Positions 1-63,097 of a stretch of DNA of 64,000 nucleotides are shown piece by piece. Source of the DNA: Lancefieldella sp. Marseille-Q7238 (GTDB lineage: Bacteria > Actinomycetota > Coriobacteriia > Coriobacteriales > Atopobiaceae); contig NZ_OX424407.1 of NCBI RefSeq assembly GCF_949152215.1, forward strand, positions 1,182,530 to 1,246,529, in the 5' to 3' direction. Below the pieces are notes generated by a model. That model saw only the letters and a program-made list of their open reading frames with translations, made no database searches and had not been told where the DNA came from. A program made the position numbers and the translations under genes. How positions within the stretch are numbered: position 1 is the stretch's first letter; every line of letters begins with the position of its first letter.

Positions 1-414
1 ATGCTTTGCTTTACCTACTTGATTGGCGATTGCGATTCGCATCTCAAGAATTACTCGCTGCTTTGGAATAGCGAATCGCGCCGACCGGTGTTTTCTCCGG
101 CATATGACTTGGTATGCACTACGCGCTTTGAGCGGTTTAGTCGTGAGATGGCCTTTGACTTTGGGGGAGAGCGGCTTATAGACAATATTGATGCGCATAC
201 CTTCGATCAACTTGCAAAAGATCTTGGCATTACTTCAAGGATGGTTAAACAAATTGCAAAACCATTAGTGGAGGCGGTTCAGCCTGAACTTATGAACGCG
301 GGGCTTGGCAACTACGGCCGAGTGTTTGATTCAACCTATAGTGTCGCTGAAGACATTGTCGATGATTGTCTTCCTCGCGTGCGCGTGTTGGAGACATTCT
401 GTACTTCTCGGTAG
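1..414 (+). CDS. HipA-family kinase, C-terminal part (cut by window start)
   Basis: Partial gene: the window opens inside it, so the N-terminal half and any HipB-like antitoxin lie upstream. What is left is the C-terminal kinase lobe of a HipA-type serine/threonine kinase, the toxin arm of HipBA systems; the E. coli protein phosphorylates glutamyl-tRNA synthetase. The visible stretch GDCDSHLKN (residues 9-17) matches the HipA catalytic loop, with Asp12 and Asn17 in the catalytic and metal positions. FSPAYDL (31-37) matches the DFG-like segment with Asp36. The rest is a helical tail. Both catalytic elements are intact in this part. Family assignment is firm; whether it acts as a toxin here is inferred. 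Confidence 0.8.
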   Translation: MLCFTYLIGDCDSHLKNYSLLWNSESRRPVFSPAYDLVCTTRFERFSREMAFDFGGERLIDNIDAHTFDQLAKDLGITSRMVKQIAKPLVEAVQPELMNAGLGNYGRVFDSTYSVAEDIVDDCLPRVRVLETFCTSR

Positions 415-527
415 AAAAATCTCGTATTGTGCCGGCGACTTCATCCGGTTTTGCTAGAGCCTATCACCTGAATAGGAGTATCCATCCAAGGGTATCCCGA
501 TAACTGGTATGAAAAGTGTGTTGAAAG

Positions 528-546
528 CCTGTTTCTGCAGAACAGG
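528..546. promoter_or_regulatory. 19-bp near-perfect palindrome upstream of htpG
   Basis: CCTGTT and AACAGG arms flank a TCTGCAG centre, 42 bp before the htpG start codon. The position and symmetry suit a dimeric repressor site. I do not recognise it as CIRCE or a known heat-shock operator, so the function is inferred from placement alone. Confidence 0.35.
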
Positions 547-587
547 TAAGGCGGCAACTCAAGAACTGAAAGGAAGTCCTGTTACCC

Positions 588-2600
588 ATGAAGCAATTTA
601 AGACCGAAAGCAAGAAACTGCTTGATCTTATGATCAACTCCATCTACACCAATCGTGAGATTTTCCTGCGCGAACTCATTTCCAACGCCTCAGACGCGCT
701 CGACAAGCTTTCCTTTGAAAGCCTCATCAAAAAAGACGTTAACGTGACGGATGCTCTGGCAATCAACCTTGCTTTCGATAAAGATGCCCGAACCATCACG
801 GTAAGCGACAACGGCATCGGCATGACAAAAGACGAACTCGACAAGAATCTCGGTACTATCGCGCACTCCGGTTCCGAGCAGTTCAAGGAAGAAAATTCCG
901 ACCATCAGGGCGACAATATCGACATCATCGGTCAATTTGGCGTCGGCTTTTACTCCAGCTTCATGATTGCTCAAAAAGTTCGCGTGATGAGCCGCGCGTA
1001 TGGCAAGAAGTGCGCCTATGTCTGGGAGTCTGACGGCGTGCATGGGTATACCGTTGCAGAAGCAACAGACGCCGACCTGCCCGAATCTTTACGCGCCGAC
1101 AGCTCGCACGGCACGGTCATAACGCTGTTCCTCCGCCCCTCTACCGAGGCAGAAGATACCGATCAGTTCCTCTCGGAGTGGAAGCTGCGCGAACTCGTGC
1201 GCCATTATTCAAACTACGTGCGCTATCCCATTCAGATGATGGTCGAGAAGAGCCGCGAGCTTCCCAAGCCAGAGGACGCCGGCGACGATTATACGCCGCA
1301 GTATGAGCAGTATCAGGAGCTTGAAACCATCAACTCGATGACGCCCATTTGGAAAAAGCGTTCGAGTGAGGTCGAACAAAGCGACTATGACGAGTTCTAT
1401 AAGGCAACCTTCCATGACTGGGAGAATCCCGCGCGTACGGTGTCGTTCCATGCCGAAGGCGCGCTCTCCTATGACGCGCTGCTCTTCATTCCCAGTCGCG
1501 TACCGTTTGACCTTTACAGCAAGGATTACGAGAAGGGCCTGGCGCTCTACACCTCCAACGTTTTGATTCAGGAGAAGTGCGCCGATCTTTTGCCCGACTG
1601 CTACAACTTTGTCCGCGGCGTCGTCGATTCTCCCGACGTAACCCTCAATATTTCCCGTGAGACCCTGCAGCAAAACTCTCAGCTGAAGGCCATTGCCCGA
1701 CGCGTTGAGAAGAAAATCACATCCGAGCTTGAAGCCATGAGGGACAGTGATCGTCCCGCCTATGAACAGTTCTTTGAGAACTTCGGCAGGGGACTCAAGT
1801 TTGGCATCTACAGCTCTTACGGTGCCAAGGCGGATGAGCTTGCCGACCTCCTGCTGTTCTGGTCCGCTCGAGAAAAGAAGCTGGTAACGCTCAAAGAATA
1901 CGCCCAGAATCGGAGTGAGGGCCAAGAGAAGATTTACTACGCCGCGGGAACTGACCGCGAGCGTCTCGCCAACATGCCGGTTGTGAAAAACGCTCTTGCC
2001 CACGGCTACGACGTGCTTCTTTGTACGCAGGACGTGGATGAGTTCATGTTCCAGGTTATGCGGTCCTATCAGGCGGAGTTGCTTGCGCCTGCCGCTGCCG
2101 CTACTGCCGCTGCAAAGGACGCCTCATCCGAGACCTCCGAAGCCTCGCTATGCGACCTTGCGTTTACGAATGTGTCTGCTGCCGATCTGAACCTTGCAAG
2201 CGAGAAGGAGCAGGAAGAGGCCAAGACGGCAGGCGAGAAGCACAAGGACCTTCTCGATGCGCTGGCCAAAGCGCTTGACGGAAAAGTGACAAGTGTTACA
2301 ACTTCGGCGTCTTTGGGGGAGGCTCCGGCTCGCGTTGCAACGGAAGGACCAGTCTCGCTTGAGATGGAGCGTGTTATGGAACAGGGTCCTGAAGCGGATC
2401 AGATGCCTAAGGCGCAACGCGTACTCGAGGTCAATCCGCAGCATCCGGTGTTTCAAAAGCTTGTCGAGGCGCAGGCTTCAAAGAAGGAGGACAAACTTTC
2501 GCTCTATGCAAACCTCCTCTATGACCAGGCTCTGCTTGTCGAGGGGCTTCCTGTAGATGACCCCATCCAGTTCGCCAAGAATGTTACCGAGCTGATGTAG
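588..2600 (+). CDS. htpG: Molecular chaperone HtpG (Hsp90)
   Basis: Cytosolic ATP-dependent Hsp90 chaperone, 670 residues, slightly longer than the usual 620-650. The N-terminal GHKL ATPase domain shows the ELISNASDALDKL helix (catalytic Glu29, Mg-binding Asn33), the DNGIGM motif (residues 74-79) and the GQFGVGFYSS lid segment (about 115-124). The middle domain keeps GVVDSPDVTLNISRE with the catalytic-loop arginine. The extra length comes from an Ala/Ser-rich linker near residues 500-530, where homologues have a short charged loop. The start ATG follows an AAAGGA ribosome site. It stands alone, with a palindrome upstream as a possible operator. The stop codon lies at the beginning of a degenerate 19-bp tandem repeat. 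Confidence 0.97.
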   Translation: MKQFKTESKKLLDLMINSIYTNREIFLRELISNASDALDKLSFESLIKKDVNVTDALAINLAFDKDARTITVSDNGIGMTKDELDKNLGTIAHSGSEQFKEENSDHQGDNIDIIGQFGVGFYSSFMIAQKVRVMSRAYGKKCAYVWESDGVHGYTVAEATDADLPESLRADSSHGTVITLFLRPSTEAEDTDQFLSEWKLRELVRHYSNYVRYPIQMMVEKSRELPKPEDAGDDYTPQYEQYQELETINSMTPIWKKRSSEVEQSDYDEFYKATFHDWENPARTVSFHAEGALSYDALLFIPSRVPFDLYSKDYEKGLALYTSNVLIQEKCADLLPDCYNFVRGVVDSPDVTLNISRETLQQNSQLKAIARRVEKKITSELEAMRDSDRPAYEQFFENFGRGLKFGIYSSYGAKADELADLLLFWSAREKKLVTLKEYAQNRSEGQEKIYYAAGTDRERLANMPVVKNALAHGYDVLLCTQDVDEFMFQVMRSYQAELLAPAAAATAAAKDASSETSEASLCDLAFTNVSAADLNLASEKEQEEAKTAGEKHKDLLDALAKALDGKVTSVTTSASLGEAPARVATEGPVSLEMERVMEQGPEADQMPKAQRVLEVNPQHPVFQKLVEAQASKKEDKLSLYANLLYDQALLVEGLPVDDPIQFAKNVTELM

Positions 2601-2698
2601 TGTTTCTTGCAGGTGCAGTGTTACCGGGCTGAGGCAGTATTGCCGAGCTGATGCGGTATTGCCTAGTTGATGCAGTATTGCGGGGCCGGTGCAACGGG
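2586..2698. repeat. Degenerate 19-bp tandem repeat seeded by the htpG 3' end
   Basis: About six units of 18-19 bp, each close to ACCGAGCTGATGCAGTATT, run from the last codons of htpG into the intergenic region (units begin at 2586, 2605, 2623, 2642, 2661 and 2680). The first unit contains the htpG stop codon, so the array looks like repeated slippage copies of the gene's own end. No hairpin or gene is apparent. Confidence 0.7.
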
Positions 2699-2752
2699 AG
2701 TCCGCTTCCGCTAAAATCGGTTTTGTGGGCATCATTGGGTCTGATTCCTTAG

Positions 2753-2792
2753 TTGTAGGCAATGTACCATAATTGTGGTACATTGCCTACAA
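2753..2792. promoter_or_regulatory. 40-bp inverted repeat upstream of the toxin-antitoxin pair
   Basis: Two 17-bp arms (TTGTAGGCAATGTACCA and its complement) surround a TAATTG centre and match perfectly. It lies 120 bp before the antitoxin start. It could be an operator bound by the Phd-like antitoxin or a rho-independent hairpin; there is no T-run after it, so I favour an operator or a small mobile palindrome. Confidence 0.5.
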
Positions 2793-2914
2793 TGCTAAAT
2801 GGAAGAAAAATTTCGGCGTATGGGCGCGCAAAATCTATGGCACGTTCATAGCCTTTTATTTCATACTTCCGTTTGTGCAGGGTAAAGCGAGGCAACAGCC
2901 TGAAAGGGGTTCTC

Positions 2915-3211
2915 GTGGCTATTTGCGTTCCTATGAGAGAATTAAAAAACACGTCCGCGTTTGTCAAAAAGGTTGTTGAGTCTTCAGAGCCCATCATCGT
3001 GACAAAGAACGGTTACAAAGCGTTTATTGCATTGTCGCCTGAACAATTTGATGCGCTTCAGTTTGAGGCATCGCGCGAGAAGATCCACCAGATTATTGCG
3101 GTTTCTGAAGCAGAGCTCAACGCAGGTGAGGCTGCAGATGTTCGCACGGTTCTTTCGGAAGCAAAGAAGCGTTGTGGATACGGCTATCGTGAGCGCGAAC
3201 ATGAAAACTAG
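2915..3211 (+). CDS. Phd/YefM-family antitoxin
   Basis: DNA-binding antitoxin of a type II toxin-antitoxin pair. It normally neutralises the toxin encoded next to it and represses the shared promoter. The N-terminal motif PMRELKNTSAF and the following EPIIVTKNGYKAF are the classic Phd/YefM signature; the C-terminal half is the helical toxin-binding tail. I place the start at GTG 2915, about 98 residues, because AAAGGGG at 2903-2909 is correctly spaced for it; an in-frame ATG at 2933 would cut into the conserved N-terminus. The 3' end overlaps the toxin gene by 11 bp, as usual for such pairs. Confidence 0.85.
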   Translation: MAICVPMRELKNTSAFVKKVVESSEPIIVTKNGYKAFIALSPEQFDALQFEASREKIHQIIAVSEAELNAGEAADVRTVLSEAKKRCGYGYREREHEN

Positions 3212-3509
3212 TGACGTTGTTTTATCCGCCTCCGCGCGGCGAGAGTTCTTGTTGATCGTAGAATATCTGCACTCAATTAGAAAAAGCGCTGCCGATGAGT
3301 TCGGTTTTCTTTCAGAGTTTGCGGTACTGATGTGGTCGCTGCAAACGCCGCATCACATTCATCCGCGGCTTAAGGATAGTGAGCTGAAGAAGCGTGGCTA
3401 TAGGAAAGTATCTTTTTCGAAGTATGTGCTGATCTATCGATCTCATAGGGATAGGATAGAAATTGTTCATATCTTTTTAGTGGGACAAGAGTATGGACGC
3501 TTTGTGTGA
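3201..3509 (+). CDS. RelE/ParE-superfamily toxin
   Basis: Small basic protein of 102 residues, partner of the overlapping Phd-like antitoxin. The ending, YRKVSFSKYVLIYRSHRDRIEIVHIFLVGQEY, has the beta-strand and VHIFLV pattern of the RelE/ParE fold (mRNA interferase or gyrase poison). I start it at ATG 3201 inside the antitoxin gene because an N-terminal segment beginning MKTSDVVLSASARREF aligns with the ParE-type first helix, while the longer upstream frame is only antisense to antitoxin coding. Whether it is a ribosome-dependent RNase or a gyrase inhibitor cannot be told from sequence. Confidence 0.8.
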   Translation: MKTSDVVLSASARREFLLIVEYLHSIRKSAADEFGFLSEFAVLMWSLQTPHHIHPRLKDSELKKRGYRKVSFSKYVLIYRSHRDRIEIVHIFLVGQEYGRFV

Positions 3510-3517
3510 GAGCAAAC

Positions 3518-3606
3518 CTGTAGCGGGCAGGTCTGCAGCGAGCAAGTCCCTAGTGGGCAAGCCCGCAACAGGCAGACTCGTAGTGGCAAGCCTGTAGCGG
3601 GCACGT
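3518..3606. repeat. Degenerate 15-bp tandem repeat
   Basis: Six units near CTGTAGCGGGCAAGT begin at 3518, 3533, 3548, 3563, 3578 (14 bp) and 3592, just before the ribosome site of the oxidoreductase gene. Units differ from one another by several bases. This resembles the array after htpG and other intergenic arrays in this window. Confidence 0.7.
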
Positions 3607-3636
3607 AAGGAGACCATTGCGATATAAGGAGGCGCT

Positions 3637-4644
3637 GTGTACCAGGAAACGAAGGACTTGTTTACAGCTCCACAGCTGCGGTGGGGTGTTATTGGCTGCG
3701 GCGTTATCGCCAACCAGATGGCTGAGGCGCTTGCAGGGGAAGGTCGCCATATTAACGGCGTTGCGAATCGCACCCATGAAAAGGCGGTAGCGTTTGCAGA
3801 GAGGCATAGCGTACTGCGGGTTTACGACACCATTGACGAACTTATCGCCGCTCCTGACATTGACGCGCTCTATCTGACGACGCCTCATAACACGCACATT
3901 ACATACCTGCGAAAAGCTCTTGCAGCGGGTAAGCATGTACTCTGCGAGAAATCTATTACGCTCAACTCCGCTGAACTTGCAGAAGCGCGCGAGCTGGCGG
4001 CTGAGCACGGCGTTCAGCTTATGGACGCCTGTACCGTTTTACACATGCCGCTCTACAAGGAGCTGCAGCGACGCATTGATGCGGGCGATTTCGGTCCGGT
4101 AAACCTCATTCAGGAGAATTTTGGCAGCTATAAGGAATACGACATGAAGAATCGCTTCTTCAATCCGAAGCTGGCGGGCGGCGCACTTCTCGATATTGGC
4201 GTATATTCTCTCACTCTTGCTCGCCTCTTCCTGAAAAGTCAGCCGCATGAGGTGCTTTCAATGATGAATCCCGCTCCCACGGGAACCGATGAAACTGAGG
4301 GCATTTTACTGCGCAACGCCGAGGGGCAGATGGTTGTTCTTTCCCTTACTATGCACTCAAAGCAGCCCAAGCGAGCCATGATTTCCGCAGATAAGGCCTA
4401 TCTTGAAATTATGGAGTATCCGCGGGCTGATCGCACGTCCATTGTTTGGACAGAGACAGGTGAGCGAGAAGAGCTGCGGGTTGGCAATACGGCGCAGGCG
4501 CTGGGCTATGTGTTGGCTGATATGGAGCGCGCTGTTGCGGGAGACGAACGTACTCGCGCACAGATTGGAACCTCAGCTGATGTTATGGAGCTTATGACTA
4601 ATCTTCGCGCTGACTGGGATTTCAAGTATCCCGAGGAGCTGTAA
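3637..4644 (+). CDS. Gfo/Idh/MocA-family oxidoreductase
   Basis: Cytosolic NAD(P)-dependent sugar or cyclitol dehydrogenase, 335 residues, the usual size for the family. The N-terminal Rossmann fold has GVIGCGVIANQMAEAL (about residues 15-30), and a CEKSITL motif (about 107-113) replaces the common EKP signature. The C-terminal alpha/beta domain contains GGALLDIGVYSL (about 185-196). GTG start preceded by TAAGGAGG. Its stop codon overlaps the mazG start by one base (TAATG), so the two are co-transcribed. The substrate is not predictable. Relatives include trans-dihydrodiol and inositol dehydrogenases. Confidence 0.9.
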   Translation: MYQETKDLFTAPQLRWGVIGCGVIANQMAEALAGEGRHINGVANRTHEKAVAFAERHSVLRVYDTIDELIAAPDIDALYLTTPHNTHITYLRKALAAGKHVLCEKSITLNSAELAEARELAAEHGVQLMDACTVLHMPLYKELQRRIDAGDFGPVNLIQENFGSYKEYDMKNRFFNPKLAGGALLDIGVYSLTLARLFLKSQPHEVLSMMNPAPTGTDETEGILLRNAEGQMVVLSLTMHSKQPKRAMISADKAYLEIMEYPRADRTSIVWTETGEREELRVGNTAQALGYVLADMERAVAGDERTRAQIGTSADVMELMTNLRADWDFKYPEEL

Positions 4645-5519
4645 TGGGCGAGAAAAGCGTGGCCGCAACGGATGTCGCAAAACTCGCAAGTCAAATTGAT
4701 GCACAGACGCAACAACGCGATGGCGCTCCGTCAAAGCACCCTGAATTTGATCGTCTCGTGCGCACAATCTGGCGCCTTCGCCAAAGCGACGGTTGTCCAT
4801 GGGATAAGGCTCAGACGCACGACTCCATTACTAAAAACATGATTGAAGAGGCCTATGAGGCTGTCGAGGCTGTCAAGGACGGTTCTTCCGAGCACCTTCA
4901 GGAAGAGCTTGGGGATGTGCTTGAACAGGTGTTACTTCATTCGCAGATTGAATCAGACGACAGTGGTTTTGATATTGACGATGTGTGTCGTGCGCTCAAT
5001 GAGAAGCTGATCCGCCGCCATCCGCACGTATTTGGACCCGAGGCGGGAAACGCTCAGGATGCCGATTCGGCGCTTACGGTATGGGACAGCGTGAAAGCTG
5101 CCGAGCGCGCCAATGAAGAAGACCGTGTGCACACCGAAGGACTTCTCGATAGCGTCCCGCACTCGCTGCCGGCACTCATGCAGGCTCAAAAACTCTCCAA
5201 GCGCGTGGCAAAGGTAGGGTTTGACTGGGATTCTGTCGAAGATATCTGGCAGAAAGCTGTCGAGGAACGCGCGGAATACGAAGCTGAAACGCCGGGCTCT
5301 GAAGCTCGAGCGGAAGAATTCGGTGACCTGCTCTTTGTCATGGTGCAGCTGGCCAGGCGAGACGGAATCGATGCGGAAGAGGCGCTTGCTTCGGCTAATC
5401 GAAAGATGCGTCGCCGCTGGTCGCGCATGGAGGAGCTTGCGAGGCAGAAGGGCTTCTCGCTTGAAGACCACCGCGAGCTGCTTGAGGACCTGTGGCAGCA
5501 GGCAAAGTCAGAAGAGTAA
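4644..5519 (+). CDS. mazG: MazG nucleoside triphosphate pyrophosphohydrolase
   Basis: House-cleaning enzyme that hydrolyses (d)NTPs to NMP and pyrophosphate. The conserved CPWDKAQTHDSI followed by MIEEAYEAVEAV gives the EExxE Mg-binding motif of the first MazG domain (about residues 70-80). A second, more diverged MazG domain lies in the C-terminal half (GDLLFVMVQLARRDGID). 291 residues, the typical two-domain bacterial form. It overlaps the preceding oxidoreductase stop codon by one base, so translation is probably coupled. The group mazG, DivIC-like gene and ppx follows closely in one direction. Confidence 0.93.
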   Translation: MGEKSVAATDVAKLASQIDAQTQQRDGAPSKHPEFDRLVRTIWRLRQSDGCPWDKAQTHDSITKNMIEEAYEAVEAVKDGSSEHLQEELGDVLEQVLLHSQIESDDSGFDIDDVCRALNEKLIRRHPHVFGPEAGNAQDADSALTVWDSVKAAERANEEDRVHTEGLLDSVPHSLPALMQAQKLSKRVAKVGFDWDSVEDIWQKAVEERAEYEAETPGSEARAEEFGDLLFVMVQLARRDGIDAEEALASANRKMRRRWSRMEELARQKGFSLEDHRELLEDLWQQAKSEE

Positions 5520-54700: not shown

Positions 54701-56560
54701 GGGTGTGGCCTTGACGCGCTGACAACCGATCAGGTTCAGGAAATCCTCGAGGCTTCGGGCAAGATTTATACGATGCTCAAAGTTGACCAGGTTTCCAACC
54801 TTGGCGCGGCGCGTATTCGCGTCCGTTCGCTCATGGCTGCCTTGAAAGAGCAGCGAGCAGAACTTGAACGTGCCACAGCGGCGGGAGAGATTGAAGAGGT
54901 TGCGCCCGTCGGCGTGCGCATGGCTGACGGTTCTCTGGAAAAGTTGCGGGACACAGGTTCTTCTCGCCAGAGCGTCACTACGAGCGCGGCTGCTGGCATT
55001 GGTGGTGGCCGTAGCGGTGATGGCAGTCGCAGACGGGTGCCGGTGTACCGTGAGGCTCAGAGCGCCGCGTACGAGAAGGTGCGCTATACCAAGGAAATGC
55101 AGGAGGCGGGCTATACCATTTTGGCTCCGCAGATGGCGCCGATTCACTTTGAGCTGGTAGAAGAGCTACTCAGGGGCGCGGGATACAACGTGGTGCTGCT
55201 GCCCTCTGTTGATCAGGGTGCTGTTGACACGGGCCTTCGCTATGTCAACAACGACATTTGCTATCCGTCAATCTTGGTTACCGGCCAGATTATGGAAGCG
55301 GTGCTTTCGGGCAACTATGACCTGACACGCACGGCCGTGTTGATTTCTCAGACAGGCGGCGGCTGCCGTGCGACTAACTACATTGCCCTTATCCGCAAGG
55401 CGCTGAGAGATGCCGGTCATCCGGAAATTCCTGTCATTTCTGTTTCCGCGGCCTCAGGTCTTGATGAGGACAATCCCGGCTTCAGACTTTTTAAGCCTGA
55501 ACTTTTGATCCGTGCTGTGTATGGTCTTCTGTACGGAGACCTCATCATGCAGCTTTTGTACCGCGTACGCCCGTATGAAGCCGTGATAGGGTCGGCAAAC
55601 GAGCTGTATGACCAGCTCATGGCTGACGCACGCTCACGCATCTGCACCATTAACCGTGCGGGCTTCTATAAAATGTGCCAGCATACGGTAGACGCGTTCG
55701 ACGCGCTTCCGGTGGCGCATGATCGACAGAAGCCCCGCGTGGGCGTTGTGGGGGAGATTCTGGTCAAATTCCACCCGACAGCCAACAACGAATTGGTCAA
55801 AGTTATCGAGTCAGAAGGCTGCGAAGCCAACGTACCAGGGCTTGTAGACTTCTTCCTCTTCGGCATGACCAACGCCATCAATACGCATAAGGAGCTGGGC
55901 ACCAAACTCAAGAGCCGCATCTCGCACATGGCCGGCATCAGGTTGGTCCAGGGTCTTCGCACGCCTATCAACAAGATGCTTGAGAAAAGTGAGCGTTTTG
56001 AGCCCTACCCTGACATCTTTGAGCTGGCCAAAAAAGCCGAGCAGATTCTTTCTCTGTGCAACACCATGGGAGAGGGCTGGCTGCTTACGGCCGAGATGTG
56101 CGATCTTATCGACACCGGTACGCCCAATATCGTGTGCGCGCAGCCGTTTGCCTGTCTGCCGAACCATGTGGTGGGCAAGGCTGTTATCAAGCGCTTGCGT
56201 CAGATGCACCCGGAGAGCAACATCGTTGCCGTGGACTACGACCCCGGCGCCTCCGAGGTAAACCAGCTCAACCGCATCAAGCTCATGATTTCGGTCGCCA
56301 AAGAGAATTACAAAAACGGAATCTCTGCAGGCAGCGCTTCTGGCCCTAATGACTTTAGACTTGAGAATGAGTTTGATCCCGTGACGAACGAGGCGACTAT
56401 GCCGTATACGGGTCGCGATCGGTATGGTATGGATTCGATTGTGAATGAAGGTGCGGACCGCTCAAGCTGCGGAACTCATCATGGCGCGGGAGCCATTCAT
56501 CTTTCTGATGAGCAGCTTGCCGCCATCGAGCGCGCTAAAGAAAAAGCAGGGGTAAAGTAG
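51785..56560 (+). CDS. Giant acyl-CoA dehydratase activase/dehydratase-like fusion
   Basis: 1591 residues. Two BcrA/BadF/HgdC-type ASKHA ATPase domains stand in tandem: LGIDVGSTTVKLSVIDE (about residues 28-44) and IGIDAGSTTMKAAVVGE (about 347-363). Each is followed by the cluster-ligand loop, GTCAGGTGAFI and CSAGCGSFI. Then come a cysteine-rich CRICPNSCLL...GNRCEKGAG segment, a DUF2229-like domain, and a C-terminal HgdB-like region with NNDICYPSILVTGQ and QTGGGCRATNY. Family knowledge: HgdC activators inject an electron into 2-hydroxyacyl-CoA dehydratases by ATP hydrolysis. Here activator and dehydratase-like parts are one chain. ATG 51785 follows GGAGAGAAA. The substrate is unknown and a non-CoA reductive function is possible. 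Confidence 0.88.
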   Translation: MSNEKIELIQNGAELAPAQPIDLDAAHLMLGIDVGSTTVKLSVIDENATLIYANYERHHTDVRATARELFEKAQRVIGSAPLYAAITGSGGMLLAQWLDLEFVQEVIASKRAVETLIPKTDVAIELGGEDAKIIYFDNGIEQRMNGTCAGGTGAFIDQMASLLKTDATGLNNLAKDAKQIYPIASRCGVFAKSDVQPLLNEGAAPADIAASIFQAVANQTVSGLACGHPIRGYVAFLGGPLQYLSELRRRFYITLNLDDEHIIVPENAHLFVATGAALAGETERSTTLAELIGALDNLKGAQGSEVARLDPLFATEADYQAFKERHNKEVVPKGDLSGYHGRVFIGIDAGSTTMKAAVVGEKGELLYTWYDNNNGDILGTARKIMDSIYDAMPKDCIIGHVTTTGYGEGILIEALRADSGEIETVAHLRGAKAFVPDVDFILDIGGQDMKCLQVKDGVIEHIMLNEACSAGCGSFIASFADSMKMDVREFAQVATKAHMPVDLGSRCTVFMNSRVKQAQKEGATIGDVAAGLSYSVIKNALFKVIKLRDFNEIGEHCIVQGGTFMSDATLRAFELLTGRDVIRPDIAGTMGAYGAALLARDRAGATGVSTLLDKEAIDSLEVKLTNTHCRICPNSCLLTINDFGGGHRFITGNRCEKGAGRKRGKKNEAPNLFAFKNKLLFDRESLPKETAPRGTVGIPRALNMYENYPFWHTFFTRLGFSVMLSDQTTAKTYDKGIESMPSESACYPAKLSHGHIMNLLEKDPDFIWMPCIRWERKEDESATNHYNCPIVMSYPQALGLNVDELSAPTVEYLAPFIPYDKKSELKRRLYELISEQREKDAATGKGRFRGDHITRAEIDAAVDAAWQTDIEFKDAMHRAGDEALAWIEAHDAHGIVLAGRPYHNDPEINHAIPELVHSFGFAVLTEDSVAHKMLPERPIRVVDQWMFHSRLYRAARFVASRNDLDLIQLFSFGCGLDALTTDQVQEILEASGKIYTMLKVDQVSNLGAARIRVRSLMAALKEQRAELERATAAGEIEEVAPVGVRMADGSLEKLRDTGSSRQSVTTSAAAGIGGGRSGDGSRRRVPVYREAQSAAYEKVRYTKEMQEAGYTILAPQMAPIHFELVEELLRGAGYNVVLLPSVDQGAVDTGLRYVNNDICYPSILVTGQIMEAVLSGNYDLTRTAVLISQTGGGCRATNYIALIRKALRDAGHPEIPVISVSAASGLDEDNPGFRLFKPELLIRAVYGLLYGDLIMQLLYRVRPYEAVIGSANELYDQLMADARSRICTINRAGFYKMCQHTVDAFDALPVAHDRQKPRVGVVGEILVKFHPTANNELVKVIESEGCEANVPGLVDFFLFGMTNAINTHKELGTKLKSRISHMAGIRLVQGLRTPINKMLEKSERFEPYPDIFELAKKAEQILSLCNTMGEGWLLTAEMCDLIDTGTPNIVCAQPFACLPNHVVGKAVIKRLRQMHPESNIVAVDYDPGASEVNQLNRIKLMISVAKENYKNGISAGSASGPNDFRLENEFDPVTNEATMPYTGRDRYGMDSIVNEGADRSSCGTHHGAGAIHLSDEQLAAIERAKEKAGVK

Positions 56561-56606
56561 GCGTGCTACCTCGATAAAAAGAGTCGTGTGCTGATGTTGT
56601 TTCTGG

Positions 56607-56642
56607 CGAGAAGGGCTTGGATTTCCGAGTCCTTCTCGTTTG
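56607..56642 (+). terminator. Terminator of the activase gene, GCGAGAAG-type
   Basis: CGAGAAGG (56607-56614) pairs with CCTTCTCG (56631-56638), loop 16 nt, followed by TTTGT. 46 bp after the stop codon. Confidence 0.7.
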
Positions 56643-56818
56643 TAGAGCAGATACAGCTGTACAACGCTTGCGGAAAGCAATAAGATTGCCTTGAAATCGT
56701 TTGAGCGTTTGGAGCAGATCATTTGAGAAGAAGGCTGATATCTATACATCATTGCTGGTCACACTGGCTGGACGGACGATCTTGATTTTCCCTTTGTCCG
56801 CAGGACGGAAAATGCGGG

Positions 56819-56944
56819 TTGACTACGATTAAAAAGCTTAAGGATCCGGCACGGCCTTATGACGCCTATGAAGAAGATGACGATACGGAAGAGAATATGA
56901 AGCAAAACGGGTATTTGAAAAGAATTAAGAAACAGTACGAATGA
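56819..56944 (+). pseudogene. Possible 41-codon acidic fragment
   Basis: A frame reading LTTIKKLKDPARPYD and continuing into an acidic stretch that ends KQNGYLKRIKKQYE. It has no ribosome site and only a TTG start. The composition looks like the C-terminal end of a real protein, so I treat it as a possible remnant left beside the insertion. Unrecognised; may be chance. Confidence 0.25.
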
Positions 56945-57091
56945 GAGAATTCTGAGGAATACCACTTTTAACGCAATAATTTTGTGCAAGATACTCCCTC
57001 TGATTGCTTCTTACAAACCACTGATACTCGCTATGACTATCTTCATCAGAAGATTAATCACACGAACCAAACCATTCTTTTTGATTTGTAA

Positions 57092-58309
57092 ATTGTAATA
57101 ACAAGTTGAACATCGACAGTTGAATAGTCTTAAGCGCTCAGGATGGTTATCCCAAAGGAATGGTTACATTCCTCTTGATTACTCTGAAAGCACAGAGCGA
57201 GCAGATGGCCAGGATCGCCGGAGGCACCTCGCAAGGGGCCGCCTTGACGAGCTGAGAGCCTGCGCTTACGGAGTGTTATGCCATGACAGCATAGATTCTT
57301 TCCAGATTATCCTCAAAAAGTTCGTCCGGAGTGTTGTAATCGAAAGTTTTTCTTGAAAGACTGTTACATCAGACTTTGATCTGACAGATGCACTCGTTTG
57401 AGAGGCTATCAATCCTTCGACCTTTCGGGATAAATCTGCGGGTCAACTCATTATGCCGCCTCACGGATTCCTTCTCACAGAAGGTATATAGATGTGCAAA
57501 ATAGACCAGTGTATTGCTCAGGCTCTCCAGTCCGGGTAACAACGAGAACTCGAAGTCGTTGTTTGCGGTGATTATCTTGAAGGTGTCGCCCCAACGCCCT
57601 TTGCACCATAGCCTTACTTCCTGGAATGCTTCTATGACACCATCTAGATTTCAGCTCGGAGTATAGATTACCCAATACTCACGAGATTGCACTCAATCAT
57701 GATAAGCAGAGCATCATCACTGCCGCTTTTTGACCTGATGATCAGATCTGCTTTCAGTGTCCGAATTCTGTCTGGGCATCGATACTGGCCTACCGCTTTA
57801 ATGCTTCGACCAAGGTTCCGTTTGTTCTCTTGAACCCGCGTCTTTTTTGGGAGAACGCCGCAACTTTTCGGAAGATCGATGTTTCTGATGTTCAGAAGCC
57901 CAAAATCTGCGTAGCTGTAAAGCGTTTTCGTACAGACAATCTGTTCTCTGGTAAATAGACCATCTTTTAGAGTGCGATGGACCAGACATCCAGCGACCAT
58001 TTGTCTTCAAAAAATGCTCTCTTACATAGGAGAAGAAGGCGCTCTTTTCAAGAAAATCACAATGACGGCAGCAAGCTTCGCAGTTCTTTTCGTAAGCAGT
58101 CTGTCTGGCTTTCGCCTTATAGTGGAAGACACTGCTTCTCTGGTAATCCTGTTGAGCGTTCATCCATCTTTGGGACGAGTTTGATAGCATGCTCTTCAAA
58201 CAAAAAATAATTTATCCTTTCTGAATTCAGCTGTAGAATATATTTGGTTCATGAAGTCTTCTCCTCGTAAATGATGACTGTTCAACTTGATTTTACAGTC
58301 AACGATGCT
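57092..58309 (-). mobile_element. IS30-family element, left inverted arm (inactive)
   Basis: 1218 bp; its transposase reads on the minus strand. It is the mirror image of 60575-61791, differing by about one base near 57343. Pieces of the transposase lie in different frames. They include GLFTREQIVCTKTLYSYADFGL, typical of IS30 (residue order as in the right arm), and the catalytic core. The core is damaged: the second DDE Asp is Asn (TANNDFEF for TTDNGSEF) and the Glu is Arg (ESVRRHN for GSVERHN). Several stops and frameshifts split it. Terminal inverted repeats are about 16 bp with 14 matches (TTGTAATAACAAGTTGAAC outside, TTGACTGTAAAATCAAGTTG inside). Confidence 0.85.
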
Positions 58310-58360
58310 AAAAGACCGAAAAAATATTCACTTTTGGAGTCATAGACAGGAGAACTCATA

Positions 58361-60229
58361 TTGTTTGGAATTACTTTTGAATCATGGCGAGAAGTTTGTC
58401 ACATGTATTTTAAATTGGAGATAGGAACACATAAAACTTATCTCCAATGGTACCCCTTTTCAAAGTTATCCGATGAGGAAAAAGAAACGATTGCTGGAGA
58501 GAATTTTTTTAACCGTTATATCAAAGATGGGAGCTTTGTTCTATTTCCGGAGGTAATGCGCCATTCAGAGAATTATATTCAAAAAGGTGATGGAAGCTTT
58601 CGGCATTCTGCCCTTATATCACCGATTATGTTCCTTGTAGTACAGGCTATCGGAAGAGAAATCTCTATTCGGTATTCTCCGAGACGAACCTCTAACCTAG
58701 CTGTATTCTATGCTGGAAATTATAGGTCTTCCAGGCCTAAGTATAAGCAGGATTATGATGATTTTTACAAGGCTATAAATACTGGGAAGGGACGGTATCA
58801 GTATTATATTAAAACAGATATTACTAACTTTTTTGATAATATAAACGTGAACGAATTGACGAATCAGATTAACAGTGTATGTAATAGGGATGAACAAATC
58901 ATATCACAAACACAGCTGTTACTGATGAAGGAACTTCTCCTGTATATCGGAGATGGTAAATTTCCACTCATTGAGAACAGTATGGCATCATCATACCTAG
59001 CAACAATAGTTTATCTTGACGAGGTAGATTGCGAACTCTACAGTTACATTAGTACAAAAATTAGTACGATTACAGATTTTCAAATGATAAGATACGTGGA
59101 TGATTTGTACATTCTTTTCTCTTCGAAAAATAGGTATGAAGAACTGACGCATACATACAATTCGATAAAAAACAGTTACTCGTCTATTCTTAAGAAGCAC
59201 AATTTAGCTCTTAATGTAAGAAAATGTGTTTTTAAGAATATTGGCGAAGTAAATGATGAGTTGAAAAAATCTTTATACGATGAATATGTAAATGGAATTG
59301 AACATGACCTTGGTCAATTTTTTCTCGGAAGATTAGGAAAATTTCTCGGCGAAATATATAATTGTATATGCAAATATGGATTAACAAACGAGCAATATGT
59401 CAATCTTATCGAAAAACACTTTACTGTGCCAGATATAGAATTTACAGCATCCGAGGTCTATAATTACTTAGTGTATGAAAATCAAACGGAACTGAAAAGT
59501 TTAAAAATATCTTCGCTTTTGGTAGAGATCATAAATAAGGATATTACATTTTTATCCATTGATCCAAAAAGACTATCTGTAATGGTTATGCAGTCCGGTA
59601 ATAACAATGCCGTAAAGGCAATGCTAAACCAACTTTTTATCCGTCACCGAGATGGTGAATGGAATTCTTATGATACAACAATTGCAATTGCTTACCTTAT
59701 CCAAAGTAAATTCCAACACAAAGATCTTCTGAGCGTTTTGAAGCAAAATAATTCAGATCTCTATGCATATTACGACTATGGATGTAAAAATGGGTTTGTT
59801 TGCCAGGTAGAAGATGAAAAAAGGAAAAGATTACTGAGATGTACGGAATCGGACGAAAAGGCCAAATTTTTGTATTTTATGAGTCTTTGCGAAGAAAATC
59901 GTTCTAATTATCTTGGCTCATATGCATATTATAAGAACTTCTTCGATCGTATTTCTGCAGACATGGCATTTAAATCGGGTACAGACAGCGAGTGCAAACG
60001 GCCAAATTATAAAGGGTATTATAAAGAAAGCAGCTTCTGTCGCTTGTACAAAAAAATAGATAAAAGTGAGGATATAATAAAAACTGCGCATACACTAAGA
60101 AATGCAAATCCACTTTCCCATTCATCTGCAGGCTTGATTGACGATAATAGTTCTAGCGAGTCTTTAACAGAAATTCGTAAAAAGTTGGCAGATCTGATTT
60201 ATGAATTTTCGAAAATTAATAATTTATGA
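58361..60229 (+). CDS. AbiA-like reverse transcriptase with C-terminal HEPN motif
   Basis: 622 residues, close to lactococcal AbiA (about 628). The polymerase core is visible: YYIKTDITNFFDNI with catalytic Asp153, FPLIENSMASSYLATIVYLD (201-220, the motif B/template region), MIRYVDDLYILF with the YVDD centre at 245-248, and HNLALNVRKC as motif D. Residues about 300-560 are helical. HTLRNANPLSH (577-587) carries the RNxNPxSH form of the R-x(4-6)-H motif of HEPN ribonucleases, as in AbiA. AbiA/AbiK enzymes are abortive-infection polymerases, some protein-primed and template-independent. TTG 58361 follows AGGAGA; ATG 58402 is an alternative. DNA is far more AT-rich than the host genes. It lies 51 bp inside the left IS30 arm. 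Confidence 0.85.
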   Translation: MFGITFESWREVCHMYFKLEIGTHKTYLQWYPFSKLSDEEKETIAGENFFNRYIKDGSFVLFPEVMRHSENYIQKGDGSFRHSALISPIMFLVVQAIGREISIRYSPRRTSNLAVFYAGNYRSSRPKYKQDYDDFYKAINTGKGRYQYYIKTDITNFFDNINVNELTNQINSVCNRDEQIISQTQLLLMKELLLYIGDGKFPLIENSMASSYLATIVYLDEVDCELYSYISTKISTITDFQMIRYVDDLYILFSSKNRYEELTHTYNSIKNSYSSILKKHNLALNVRKCVFKNIGEVNDELKKSLYDEYVNGIEHDLGQFFLGRLGKFLGEIYNCICKYGLTNEQYVNLIEKHFTVPDIEFTASEVYNYLVYENQTELKSLKISSLLVEIINKDITFLSIDPKRLSVMVMQSGNNNAVKAMLNQLFIRHRDGEWNSYDTTIAIAYLIQSKFQHKDLLSVLKQNNSDLYAYYDYGCKNGFVCQVEDEKRKRLLRCTESDEKAKFLYFMSLCEENRSNYLGSYAYYKNFFDRISADMAFKSGTDSECKRPNYKGYYKESSFCRLYKKIDKSEDIIKTAHTLRNANPLSHSSAGLIDDNSSSESLTEIRKKLADLIYEFSKINNL

Positions 60230-60574
60230 TTCAGTACAAATACAGTGCTCCAGTAGTGTTCGGGGCAGTTTGATTATGTGTAGAAGCACCTGAAATCTTC
60301 TCAGAATCATACAGTGTTAAAAGTCTTATGGATAGTGTAGTGCCGTATTGAATTGGCTATAGCAAATCATCGAAAATGAAATATGTATTTATCTACACAG
60401 AGAACCTTGAGCATCCTAGTGGATCCTTTGGAAGATTGGAAAGGAGATTCATCCGTACCATGGGTATTTATGCATTTGTTTAATATACCTTAAATAGCCA
60501 AGATAAGGATTTGCTACTTGTTGTCAAGAATGATGAGATGGGCAAATAGATACAGGGATGAATCTAATCACAAA
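60230..60574 (+). other. 345-bp AT-rich tail between the RT gene and the right arm
   Basis: No full gene. A 35-codon frame (60376-60483) begins KYVFIYTENLEHPSGSFG; after its stop, KDLLLVVKNDEMGK continues in the same frame. So a longer gene may once have been here. No strong hairpin or terminator is visible. A small RNA cannot be excluded. Confidence 0.45.
60376..60483 (+). pseudogene. Short unidentified coding remnant
   Basis: 35 codons ending MGIYAFV-stop, with in-frame coding-like sequence beyond the stop (YTLNSQDKDLLLVVKNDEM). No ribosome site. Unrecognised; perhaps the remains of a partner gene of the RT or of an older insertion. Confidence 0.3.
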
Positions 60575-61791
60575 AGCATCGTTGACTGTAAAATCAAGTT
60601 GAACAGTCATCATTTACGAGGAGAAGACTTCATGAACCAAATATATTCTACAGCTGAATTCAGAAAGGATAAATTATTTTTTGTTTGAAGAGCATGCTAT
60701 CAAACTCGTCCCAAAGATGGATGAACGCTCAACAGGATTACCAGAGAAGCAGTGTCTTCCACTATAAGGCGAAAGCCAGACAGACTGCTTACGAAAAGAA
60801 CTGCGAAGCTTGCTGCCGTCATTGTGATTTTCTTGAAAAGAGCGCCTTCTTCTCCTATGTAAGAGAGCATTTTTTGAAGACAAATGGTCGCTGGATGTCT
60901 GGTCCATCGCACTCTAAAAGATGGTCTATTTACCAGAGAACAGATTGTCTGTACGAAAACGCTTTACAGCTACGCAGATTTTGGGCTTCTGAACATCAGA
61001 AACATCGATCTTCCGAAAAGTTGCGGCGTTCTCCCAAAAAAGACGCGGGTTCAAGAGAACAAACGGAACCTTGGTCGAAGCATTAAAGCGGTAGGCCAGT
61101 ATCGATGCCCAGACAGAATTCGGACACTGAAAGCAGATCTGATCATCAGGTCAAAAAGCGGCAGTGATGATGCTCTGCTTATCATGATTGAGTGCAATCT
61201 CGTGAGTATTGGGTAATCTATACTCCGAGCTGAAATCTAGATGGTGTCATAGAAGCATTCCAGGAAGTAAGGCTATGGTGCAAAGGGCGTTGGGGCGACA
61301 CCTTCAAGATAATCACCGCAAACAACGACTTCGAGTTCTCGTTGTTACCCGGACTGGAGAGCCTGAGCAATACACTGGTCTATTTTGCACATCTATATAC
61401 CTTCTGTGAGAAGGAATCCGTGAGGCGGCATAATGAGTTGACCCGCAGATTTATCCCGAAAGGTCGAAGGATTGATAGCCTCTCAAACGAGTGCATCTGT
61501 CAGATCAAAGTCTGATGTAACAGTCTTTCAAGAAAAACTTTGATTACAACACTCCGGACGAACTTTTTGAGGATAATCTGGAAAGAATCTATGCTGTCAT
61601 GGCATAACACTCCGTAAGCGCAGGCTCTCAGCTCGTCAAGGCGGCCCCTTGCGAGGTGCCTCCGGCGATCCTGGCCATCTGCTCGCTCTGTGCTTTCAGA
61701 GTAATCAAGAGGAATGTAACCATTCCTTTGGGATAACCATCCTGAGCGCTTAAGACTATTCAACTGTCGATGTTCAACTTGTTATTACAAT
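60575..61791 (+). mobile_element. IS30-family element, right inverted arm (inactive)
   Basis: 1217 bp, transposase frame on the plus strand, the mirror image of the left arm. Segments in order: HYKAKARQTAYEKNCEACC (N-terminal region), then in another frame LYSYADFGLLNIRNIDLP and ADLIIRSKSGSDDALL (first catalytic Asp retained). A third frame gives TANNDFEFSLLPGLESLSN, FAHLYTFCEKESVRRHN and RRFIPKGRRIDSLS. Asp to Asn and Glu to Arg changes remove the other two catalytic residues, exactly as in the left arm. The outer end is TTATTACAAT at 61782-61791. Confidence 0.85.
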
Positions 61792-61895
61792 CTTTTTGGT
61801 TCCTCCGTAACGCTCGATTTCAAAATTGTGATTAGCTTAACAATGATTTAACACCCCTTCTGTTGTACTGGTGAGCACAGGAGAAGGGAGAGCAT

Positions 61896-62063
61896 ATGGA
61901 ATCAAAGCTCGCTTGTGTTCGAAGTTGTCGTTTGCGAATACTGCCAATCGTGTTTTTACTTTTGGGCGGCGTGTTCGTGGTGTATGGAGCCTCTCGGGGA
62001 GAAGTTCAGACCGTTTTTGCAAAAGCGGTCCGTATCTGCCTTGAGTGTGTGGGTATCGGGTAG
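61896..62063 (+). CDS. CD1871A-family CXXC membrane peptide
   Basis: 55 residues from ATG 61896 (GAAGGGAGAG upstream). A basic N-terminus and one transmembrane helix (about 14-32, LRILPIVFLLLGGVFVVYG) are followed by VFAKAVRICLECVGIG at the C-terminus. The CLEC pair is the family's CXXC motif, and the terminal IGIG-like ending is typical of the CD1871A family found in anaerobes. Its stop codon lies just before the start of the polyferredoxin gene. These small proteins regularly occur with 4Fe-4S membrane proteins and TlpA-like lipoproteins; a redox or cofactor role is inferred. Confidence 0.85.
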   Translation: MESKLACVRSCRLRILPIVFLLLGGVFVVYGASRGEVQTVFAKAVRICLECVGIG

Positions 62064-62071
62064 GTGCGCTC

Positions 62072-63097
62072 GTGAATAAGGTAGTTACCGGAGCGTGTAC
62101 TCTTGGAAAGCGGGTATGGTCAGTTATCAGCAGGAGAGGAGTTGTGCAGGCATGCGCGGCCTTTCTTACGAATCCCCATATTCCCAATTTCATCAAAGGG
62201 ACTATTTACACCGGCTCGGCAAAATCGGTCTGTGTACCTGGACTTAATTGCTATTCTTGTCCGGCGGCAACAGGGGCCTGTCCTATCGGAGCGTTTCAGG
62301 CAGTAGTCGGCTCCTCCAAGTTCAGTTTTTCCTACTACATTACGGGTATTTTGATCTTGATTGGAACCCTTCTGGGGAGGTTTGTCTGCGGTTTTCTCTG
62401 CCCCTTTGGCTGGGTGCAGGATCTGCTCAACAAAATCCCGTTTCCCAAGAAGTTTGGTACTAAAAAGCTCAAATGGCTGCGCTATCTGAAATACGTCATT
62501 TTAATCGTGATGGTGTGGGCACTTCCGGCTTTGCTTCAAAACGCCGTAGGAATGGGTGACCCCTATTTTTGCAAGTACATCTGCCCGCAAGGCATACTTG
62601 AGGGAGCGATTCCCCTCTCGCTTGCAGATGAGAGCATCAAAGCGGCTCTCGGCACGCTTTTTACGATGAAATTCAGTATCTTGGCGACAATCGTGCTTTT
62701 GAGCGTTATGTTTTACCGCCCGTTCTGCAAATGGATCTGTCCTTTGGGGGCCTTCTATTCGCTGTTCAACCGGATTTCTATTTTGCAGTATCGCGTTGAT
62801 ACGGACGCCTGTATCAAGTGTGGAAAATGTGCCCGTACGTGCAAGATGGATGTGGATATAACCAAGAACAACGCTGCGCTTGAATGTATCCGCTGCGGAG
62901 AATGCATTAAAGCATGTCCGGTACACGCGATTGATTCAAAACTCATGTTGATGAACCGTGAGATTGCAGCGTCAAAGAAGGTTGCGGCGGCAAAGACCGC
63001 GGCAGCAAAGGCAGCAAGGAGCACGAAGACCGCGGCAGCAAGGAGCACGGCAGCGAAAGCTTCAAAACAAAAGGCCGCTGCAAAAGCGGCACGATAG
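62072..63097 (+). CDS. Membrane-bound 4Fe-4S protein (NapH/CcoG-like)
   Basis: About 341 residues from GTG 62072 (TAGGTG upstream; a GTG at 62045 is also in frame). The N-terminal cytoplasmic CVPGLNCYSCPAATGACPIG is a cysteine cluster. Membrane helices carry CGFLCPFGWVQDLL and CKWICPLGAFYSLF, the NapH-type CxxxCP loops. Two classical 4Fe-4S motifs follow, CIKCGKCARTCKMDVDI and CIRCGECIKACPVHA. The last 45 residues are a Lys/Ala-rich tail (AAAKTAAAKAARS-like repeats) of unknown use. Role: electron transfer across or along the membrane, probably to the TlpA-like lipoprotein. Confidence 0.88.
   Translation: MNKVVTGACTLGKRVWSVISRRGVVQACAAFLTNPHIPNFIKGTIYTGSAKSVCVPGLNCYSCPAATGACPIGAFQAVVGSSKFSFSYYITGILILIGTLLGRFVCGFLCPFGWVQDLLNKIPFPKKFGTKKLKWLRYLKYVILIVMVWALPALLQNAVGMGDPYFCKYICPQGILEGAIPLSLADESIKAALGTLFTMKFSILATIVLLSVMFYRPFCKWICPLGAFYSLFNRISILQYRVDTDACIKCGKCARTCKMDVDITKNNAALECIRCGECIKACPVHAIDSKLMLMNREIAASKKVAAAKTAAAKAARSTKTAAARSTAAKASKQKAAAKAAR

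Follow-up and report, generated by a model that had tools for sequence, protein, structure and literature searches.

What kind of polymerase is encoded by a reverse transcriptase-like gene lying within a palindrome of dead IS30 elements in a Lancefieldella strain, how the gene came to be packaged in this way, and how its product might act are the questions raised by this locus, which is part of the 64,000-nucleotide stretch of DNA analysed here (the window). Taken together, the evidence makes it very probable that the gene's product is a phage-defence polymerase of the AbiA family and that the gene entered recently from Bacillota along with its surrounding segment, the polymerase activity and the defence role being predicted by homology.

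The reading frame of abiA is open over its 622 codons with no internal stop, and its TTG start is credible, with AGGAG just upstream and homologs that start at the equivalent position, two of them (L007 and L011) also with TTG. Asp153, the YVDD motif at residues 245-248, Arg580 and His587 are all located where a first-pass annotation of this DNA had placed them, and these residues, together with Asn583 and Pro584, are invariant across 10 aligned AbiAs. The AbiA profile TIGR04499 scored 694 bits over residues 2-612 (cut-off 250), the PADLOC AbiA model 751 bits over 1-618 and a second AbiA model 721 bits, with the next distinct models at 93 and 55 bits. The Pfam domain PF18732 (HEPN_AbiA_CTD) matched residues 492-618 at 158 bits, and the only strong relative in the PDB was the L. 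lactis AbiA structure, 8oz7 (E 1e-75 over 4-612). An AlphaFold model built from nine homologs (mean pLDDT 77.8) was superimposed on 8oz7 over 556 of 622 residues, with a VIA-align Z of 30.2, an rmsd of 4.8 and a match spanning 1-622; the next-best structures reached Z 17 and covered the RT domain only. The Foldseek comparison that the first-pass annotation had suggested gave a TM of 0.73 for the model against 8oz7, with AbiK and Abi-P2 far lower. The resulting layout is an RT domain (about residues 1-300), a helical region (about 317-480) and a HEPN domain (about 492-618). Tyr306 aligns with the priming Tyr298 of L. lactis AbiA, and the second priming tyrosine of that protein, Tyr303, has no equivalent.

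By every family test, whether profiles, Pfam domain or structure match, the protein is an AbiA, and its initial assignment as an AbiA-type RT with a C-terminal HEPN domain stands on the profile scores, PF18732 and the fold match to 8oz7. Two outcomes that had been named as speaking against this assignment were also evaluated: group II intron and retron RT models scored far under their curated cut-offs (34 bits against 300, and 33 bits against 235 for retron St85), and the C-terminus, rather than lacking a HEPN fold, gave both the 158-bit HEPN_AbiA_CTD match and the structural match. The gene is thus an intact AbiA, ordinary in kind and horizontally acquired, of a family already known; what is unusual is its host group, its packaging, and a HEPN site that is strictly conserved yet was reported as dispensable in L. 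lactis AbiA. Table 1 summarizes the layout of the segment.

Table 1. Features of the abiA segment and its left border, in window positions
Feature	Position	Strand	Basis
Terminator-like hairpin GAGAAGGGCTTGGATTTCCGAGTCCTTCTCGTTTG of the upstream 2-hydroxyacyl-CoA dehydratase/activator-like gene	56607..56647	+	by eye; not called by the scan
Strain-specific insertion, ~5.18 kb, missing from G025	56648..61829		empty-site comparison
Foreign stretch left of the palindrome	56648..57091		absent from G025
Left arm: dead IS30 plus 10 bp past its inner end	57092..58309	-	repeat and transposase match
Leader of the RT gene (51 bp), containing the AGGAG ribosome-binding site	58310..58360	+	sequence
abiA, predicted protein-primed RT-like polymerase, 622 codons, TTG start	58361..60229	+	profiles, alignment, model
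345 bp separating abiA from the right arm; no gene identified, no Rfam match	60230..60574		
Right arm: dead IS30, inverted copy of the left arm	60575..61791	+	
Foreign 38 bp right of the palindrome	61792..61829		absent from G025

The two inverted arms bracket abiA and, when aligned end to end, differ by one single-base indel only, the inverted blocks being 57343-58309/60575-61541 (967 nt, 100% identical) and 57092-57350/61533-61791 (259 nt, 99%). An inverted repeat of such length and identity cannot be due to chance. Both arms match a Lactobacillus IS30 transposase by tblastn (32-35% identity), with stops and frame changes interrupting the match, and the label of dead IS30 is therefore correct; repeat alignment and tblastn in this respect bear out the near-identical dead arms first described. 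The 4.7-kb palindrome is likewise real, although the foreign segment proved to be larger than the palindrome, as shown by the empty site in a genome of the same species (G025). The flanks in G025 are 97.5-98.4% identical to those of the present strain, match it up to 56647 and again from 61830, and abut at C1:965915. The insertion starts directly 3' of the hairpin. In the 444 bp that form its left end no gene was identified, and neither a 38-aa frame within this stretch nor the stretch itself found a match. The outer 38 bp match part of these 444 bp in inverted orientation; the match appeared suggestive at first and was rejected, with 195 of 2000 shuffles scoring equally.

Delivery of the gene by a composite transposon had been proposed in the first-pass annotation. 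In this reading the palindrome would be a true composite IS30 transposon, once active or mobilised in trans by a related transposase, that brought in abiA as a unit. In keeping with this, a foreign gene is enclosed by two inverted IS copies of one family with recognisable terminal repeats, the outer limits of arm homology coincide exactly with the IS ends, and the genome contains two intact IS30-family transposase genes elsewhere, albeit of another subtype. However, the insertion boundaries lie not at the outer IS ends but farther out, by 444 bp on the left and 38 bp on the right, and the 2-3 bp target duplication is absent both at the palindrome ends (flanks TAA/CTT) and at the insertion ends (flanks GTAGAG/ATTAGC). 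Furthermore, the stops and frame changes are identical in the left and right arms, which means that the IS30 element was dead before the arms became equal, and the arms share 10 bp (AGCATCGTTG) past the inner terminal repeat, the IS end, placed by means of a related IS30 remnant in G025, falling before these shared bases. No functional transposase is present in cis, and neither an intact IS of the arms' type nor any further copy of it was found elsewhere in the genome. A composite transposon, as first proposed, is accordingly an unlikely source of the palindrome. A better fit is an old, dead IS30 that underwent inverted duplication or gene conversion, because the lesions and the 10 bp are shared, target duplications are missing, no further copy of the element was found, and the palindrome is narrower than the insertion. 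Under inverted duplication or gene conversion, a 5.2-kb segment carrying abiA from Bacillota would have been inserted recently behind the upstream gene's terminator in this strain, with two copies of one already-dead IS30, equalised by either process, forming the palindrome. What remains would be a defence gene housed in transposon debris, with no live transposon.

Debris of the same kind also adjoins a second defence-type gene in G025, where an AT-rich OLD/GajA-like AAA-TOPRIM gene (L049:2510-4972; PADLOC Old, 160 bits) abuts another dead IS30 remnant, the end of which shows 88% identity across 41 bp with the outer end of the palindrome.

For the mode of action, a study of L. lactis AbiA has described a HEPN-mediated dimer that carries out protein-primed, untemplated DNA synthesis, and phage defence that depends on the priming tyrosines as well as on the YVDD site (PMC11077055). 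As the protein retains the main priming tyrosine along with its catalytic residues, the same mechanism would be expected here: a HEPN-mediated dimer would form, Tyr306 of the protein itself would prime synthesis, untemplated single-stranded DNA would be made in a YVDD-dependent manner, and the resulting DNA synthesis would block phage multiplication. Priming details may differ, since the L. lactis protein is only 30% identical. Expression of abiA is uncertain, because the unique sequence ahead of the gene is only 51 bases long, promoter sites were no more numerous than in shuffles, and the terminator scan called none. A non-coding RNA partner of the DRT2/DRT9 style seems less likely, as there is no Rfam match in 56000-62500 and DNA similarity with the homologs begins at the abiA start without reaching upstream.

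The first-pass annotation had also assigned the HEPN domain an RNase role leading to abortive death, an idea suggested for AbiA by Anantharaman et al. 2013 (PMC3710099). A working RNase at Arg580-His587 that kills the infected cell would be in line with the R, NP and H positions not varying among 10 AbiAs, some as little as 29% identical, a constancy suggestive of selection there. For the L. lactis homolog, however, this role is contradicted: no RNase activity was observed on the tested RNAs, the R581A/H588A mutants retained full defence in E. coli, and there was no clear cell death (PMC11077055). HEPN-mediated killing is therefore doubtful for the present protein as well, and the domain would serve at least as a dimerisation element of the proposed DNA-synthesizing AbiA. 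The R, N-P and H positions (residues 580-587, window 60098-60121) are invariant in 10/10 AbiAs, and in the L. lactis protein changing the R and H has no effect on defence (PMC11077055). This strict R-x2-NP-x2-H conservation, set against the reported dispensability in L. lactis, is a tension that can be tested.

With respect to origin, the closest relatives found for the protein come from Anaerovibrio (62-64% identity), followed by an incomplete viral-contig copy (62%) and by Clostridia proteins (50-54%). In a maximum-likelihood tree it forms a clade with the Anaerovibrio and viral-contig proteins (support 100/100) within the Bacillota set, and the suggestion of a new AbiA branch in Actinobacteria does not hold for a gene that nests in a Bacillota clade at 64% identity to Anaerovibrio. 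Two further full-length AbiAs were found in the host's class; they share only 29-31% identity with the protein and lie outside this clade, on long branches that leave their exact place unsure. Neither of these two (L065:1408-3303 and L066:1456-3312) has a tyrosine in the Tyr298/Tyr306 column, and thus they may prime elsewhere. Plasmid records contained one full-length AbiA, at 29% identity; phage records contained no copy, and a second scan of viral contigs with the alignment returned only the same contig.

Among the genomes scanned, AbiA exceeded the cut-off in just one of the host's family (1/140), in three of its class (3/398) and in two of its phylum (2/396); the other 139 family genomes, three further congeners among them, gave no such score. 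In abiA the third codon position has a G+C content of 0.31, versus 0.56-0.66 in five host genes, a difference that alone would be weak evidence of transfer because all these hosts have AT-rich AbiA genes (0.25-0.39). Transfer into the strain, as claimed from the outset, is supported jointly by the empty site, absence over the cut-off from the rest of the family, the Bacillota kin and the alien composition; fixation throughout the genus with host-like composition, which would have spoken against it, was not what was found, the congeners being without AbiA over the cut-off and the G+C foreign. Conversely, the segment could be ancestral in the species and deleted from G025, in which case abiA is no recent gain. 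The comparison rests on one same-species genome and the insertion is without target duplication, as such a deletion would allow. Against it, AbiA over the cut-off is missing from three more congeners and from all other genomes among the 140, the site is occupied in a congener by 6.5 kb of unrelated sequence, and both G+C and phylogeny are foreign, so that loss from G025 is quite improbable. Recent strain-level acquisition from Bacillota is the simplest reading, the donor and the route of entry being putative.

The unrelated 6.5-kb stretch at the equivalent site in the congener (G024; L048:2153-8692) appears, from reading of its translations, to carry one gene resembling a dehydrogenase, another resembling an acyltransferase, and a disrupted transposase gene, and the intergenic site may therefore be an insertion hot spot. 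It is very unlikely that the palindrome is kept for a reason, such as inversion of abiA or a promoter from either side, or that the HEPN site is needed against the natural phages of the hosts, in contrast to the tests of L. lactis AbiA in E. coli.

The locus adds an AbiA to a group in which the family is rare (the counts over the cut-off in class and phylum given above), and the presence of abiA in this strain and its absence from G025 provide a same-species pair that is a clean means to measure the effect of the gene.

Among known systems, the protein resembles Lactococcus AbiA (TIGR04499; 8oz7; PMC11077055) in the order of RT, helical and HEPN regions, the YVDD motif, the Tyr298 equivalent, the R-x6-H motif and the fold (Z 30 over 556 residues), but differs in being 30% identical and without an equivalent of Tyr303. 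AbiK and Abi-P2 are related polymerases, likewise untemplated and protein-primed, and their RT and helical regions align with the model (Z 12.7 and 15.3); however, they have no HEPN domain, form trimers or hexamers rather than dimers (PMC11077055), and score far lower against the model. Nearest in the tree are the Anaerovibrio AbiAs (L004 and L005), at 62-64% identity over the full length, and the AbiA of the IMG/VR contig L013 belongs to the same clade, with 62% identity over residues 227-613. In their surroundings these genes differ from the present one. The Lactococcus plasmid abiA lies behind the LlaJI restriction system and adjoins an integrase; one Anaerovibrio abiA (L005, 6001-7869), its frame broken in two, follows hsdR-hsdM-hsdS-like genes of a type I restriction operon; and the abiA of L013 (within 103-5396) adjoins phage replication genes, encoding a DNA polymerase A, an Enc34-type ssDNA-binding protein and a DUF2800 protein. 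No IS30 was found in the examined flanks of ten AbiA homolog loci, those of Anaerovibrio included, and the IS30 frame is therefore, as far as seen, particular to this strain. The relatives carry AbiA as cargo within other defence or mobile units, whereas here the gene is solitary, standing alone between dead IS30 copies.
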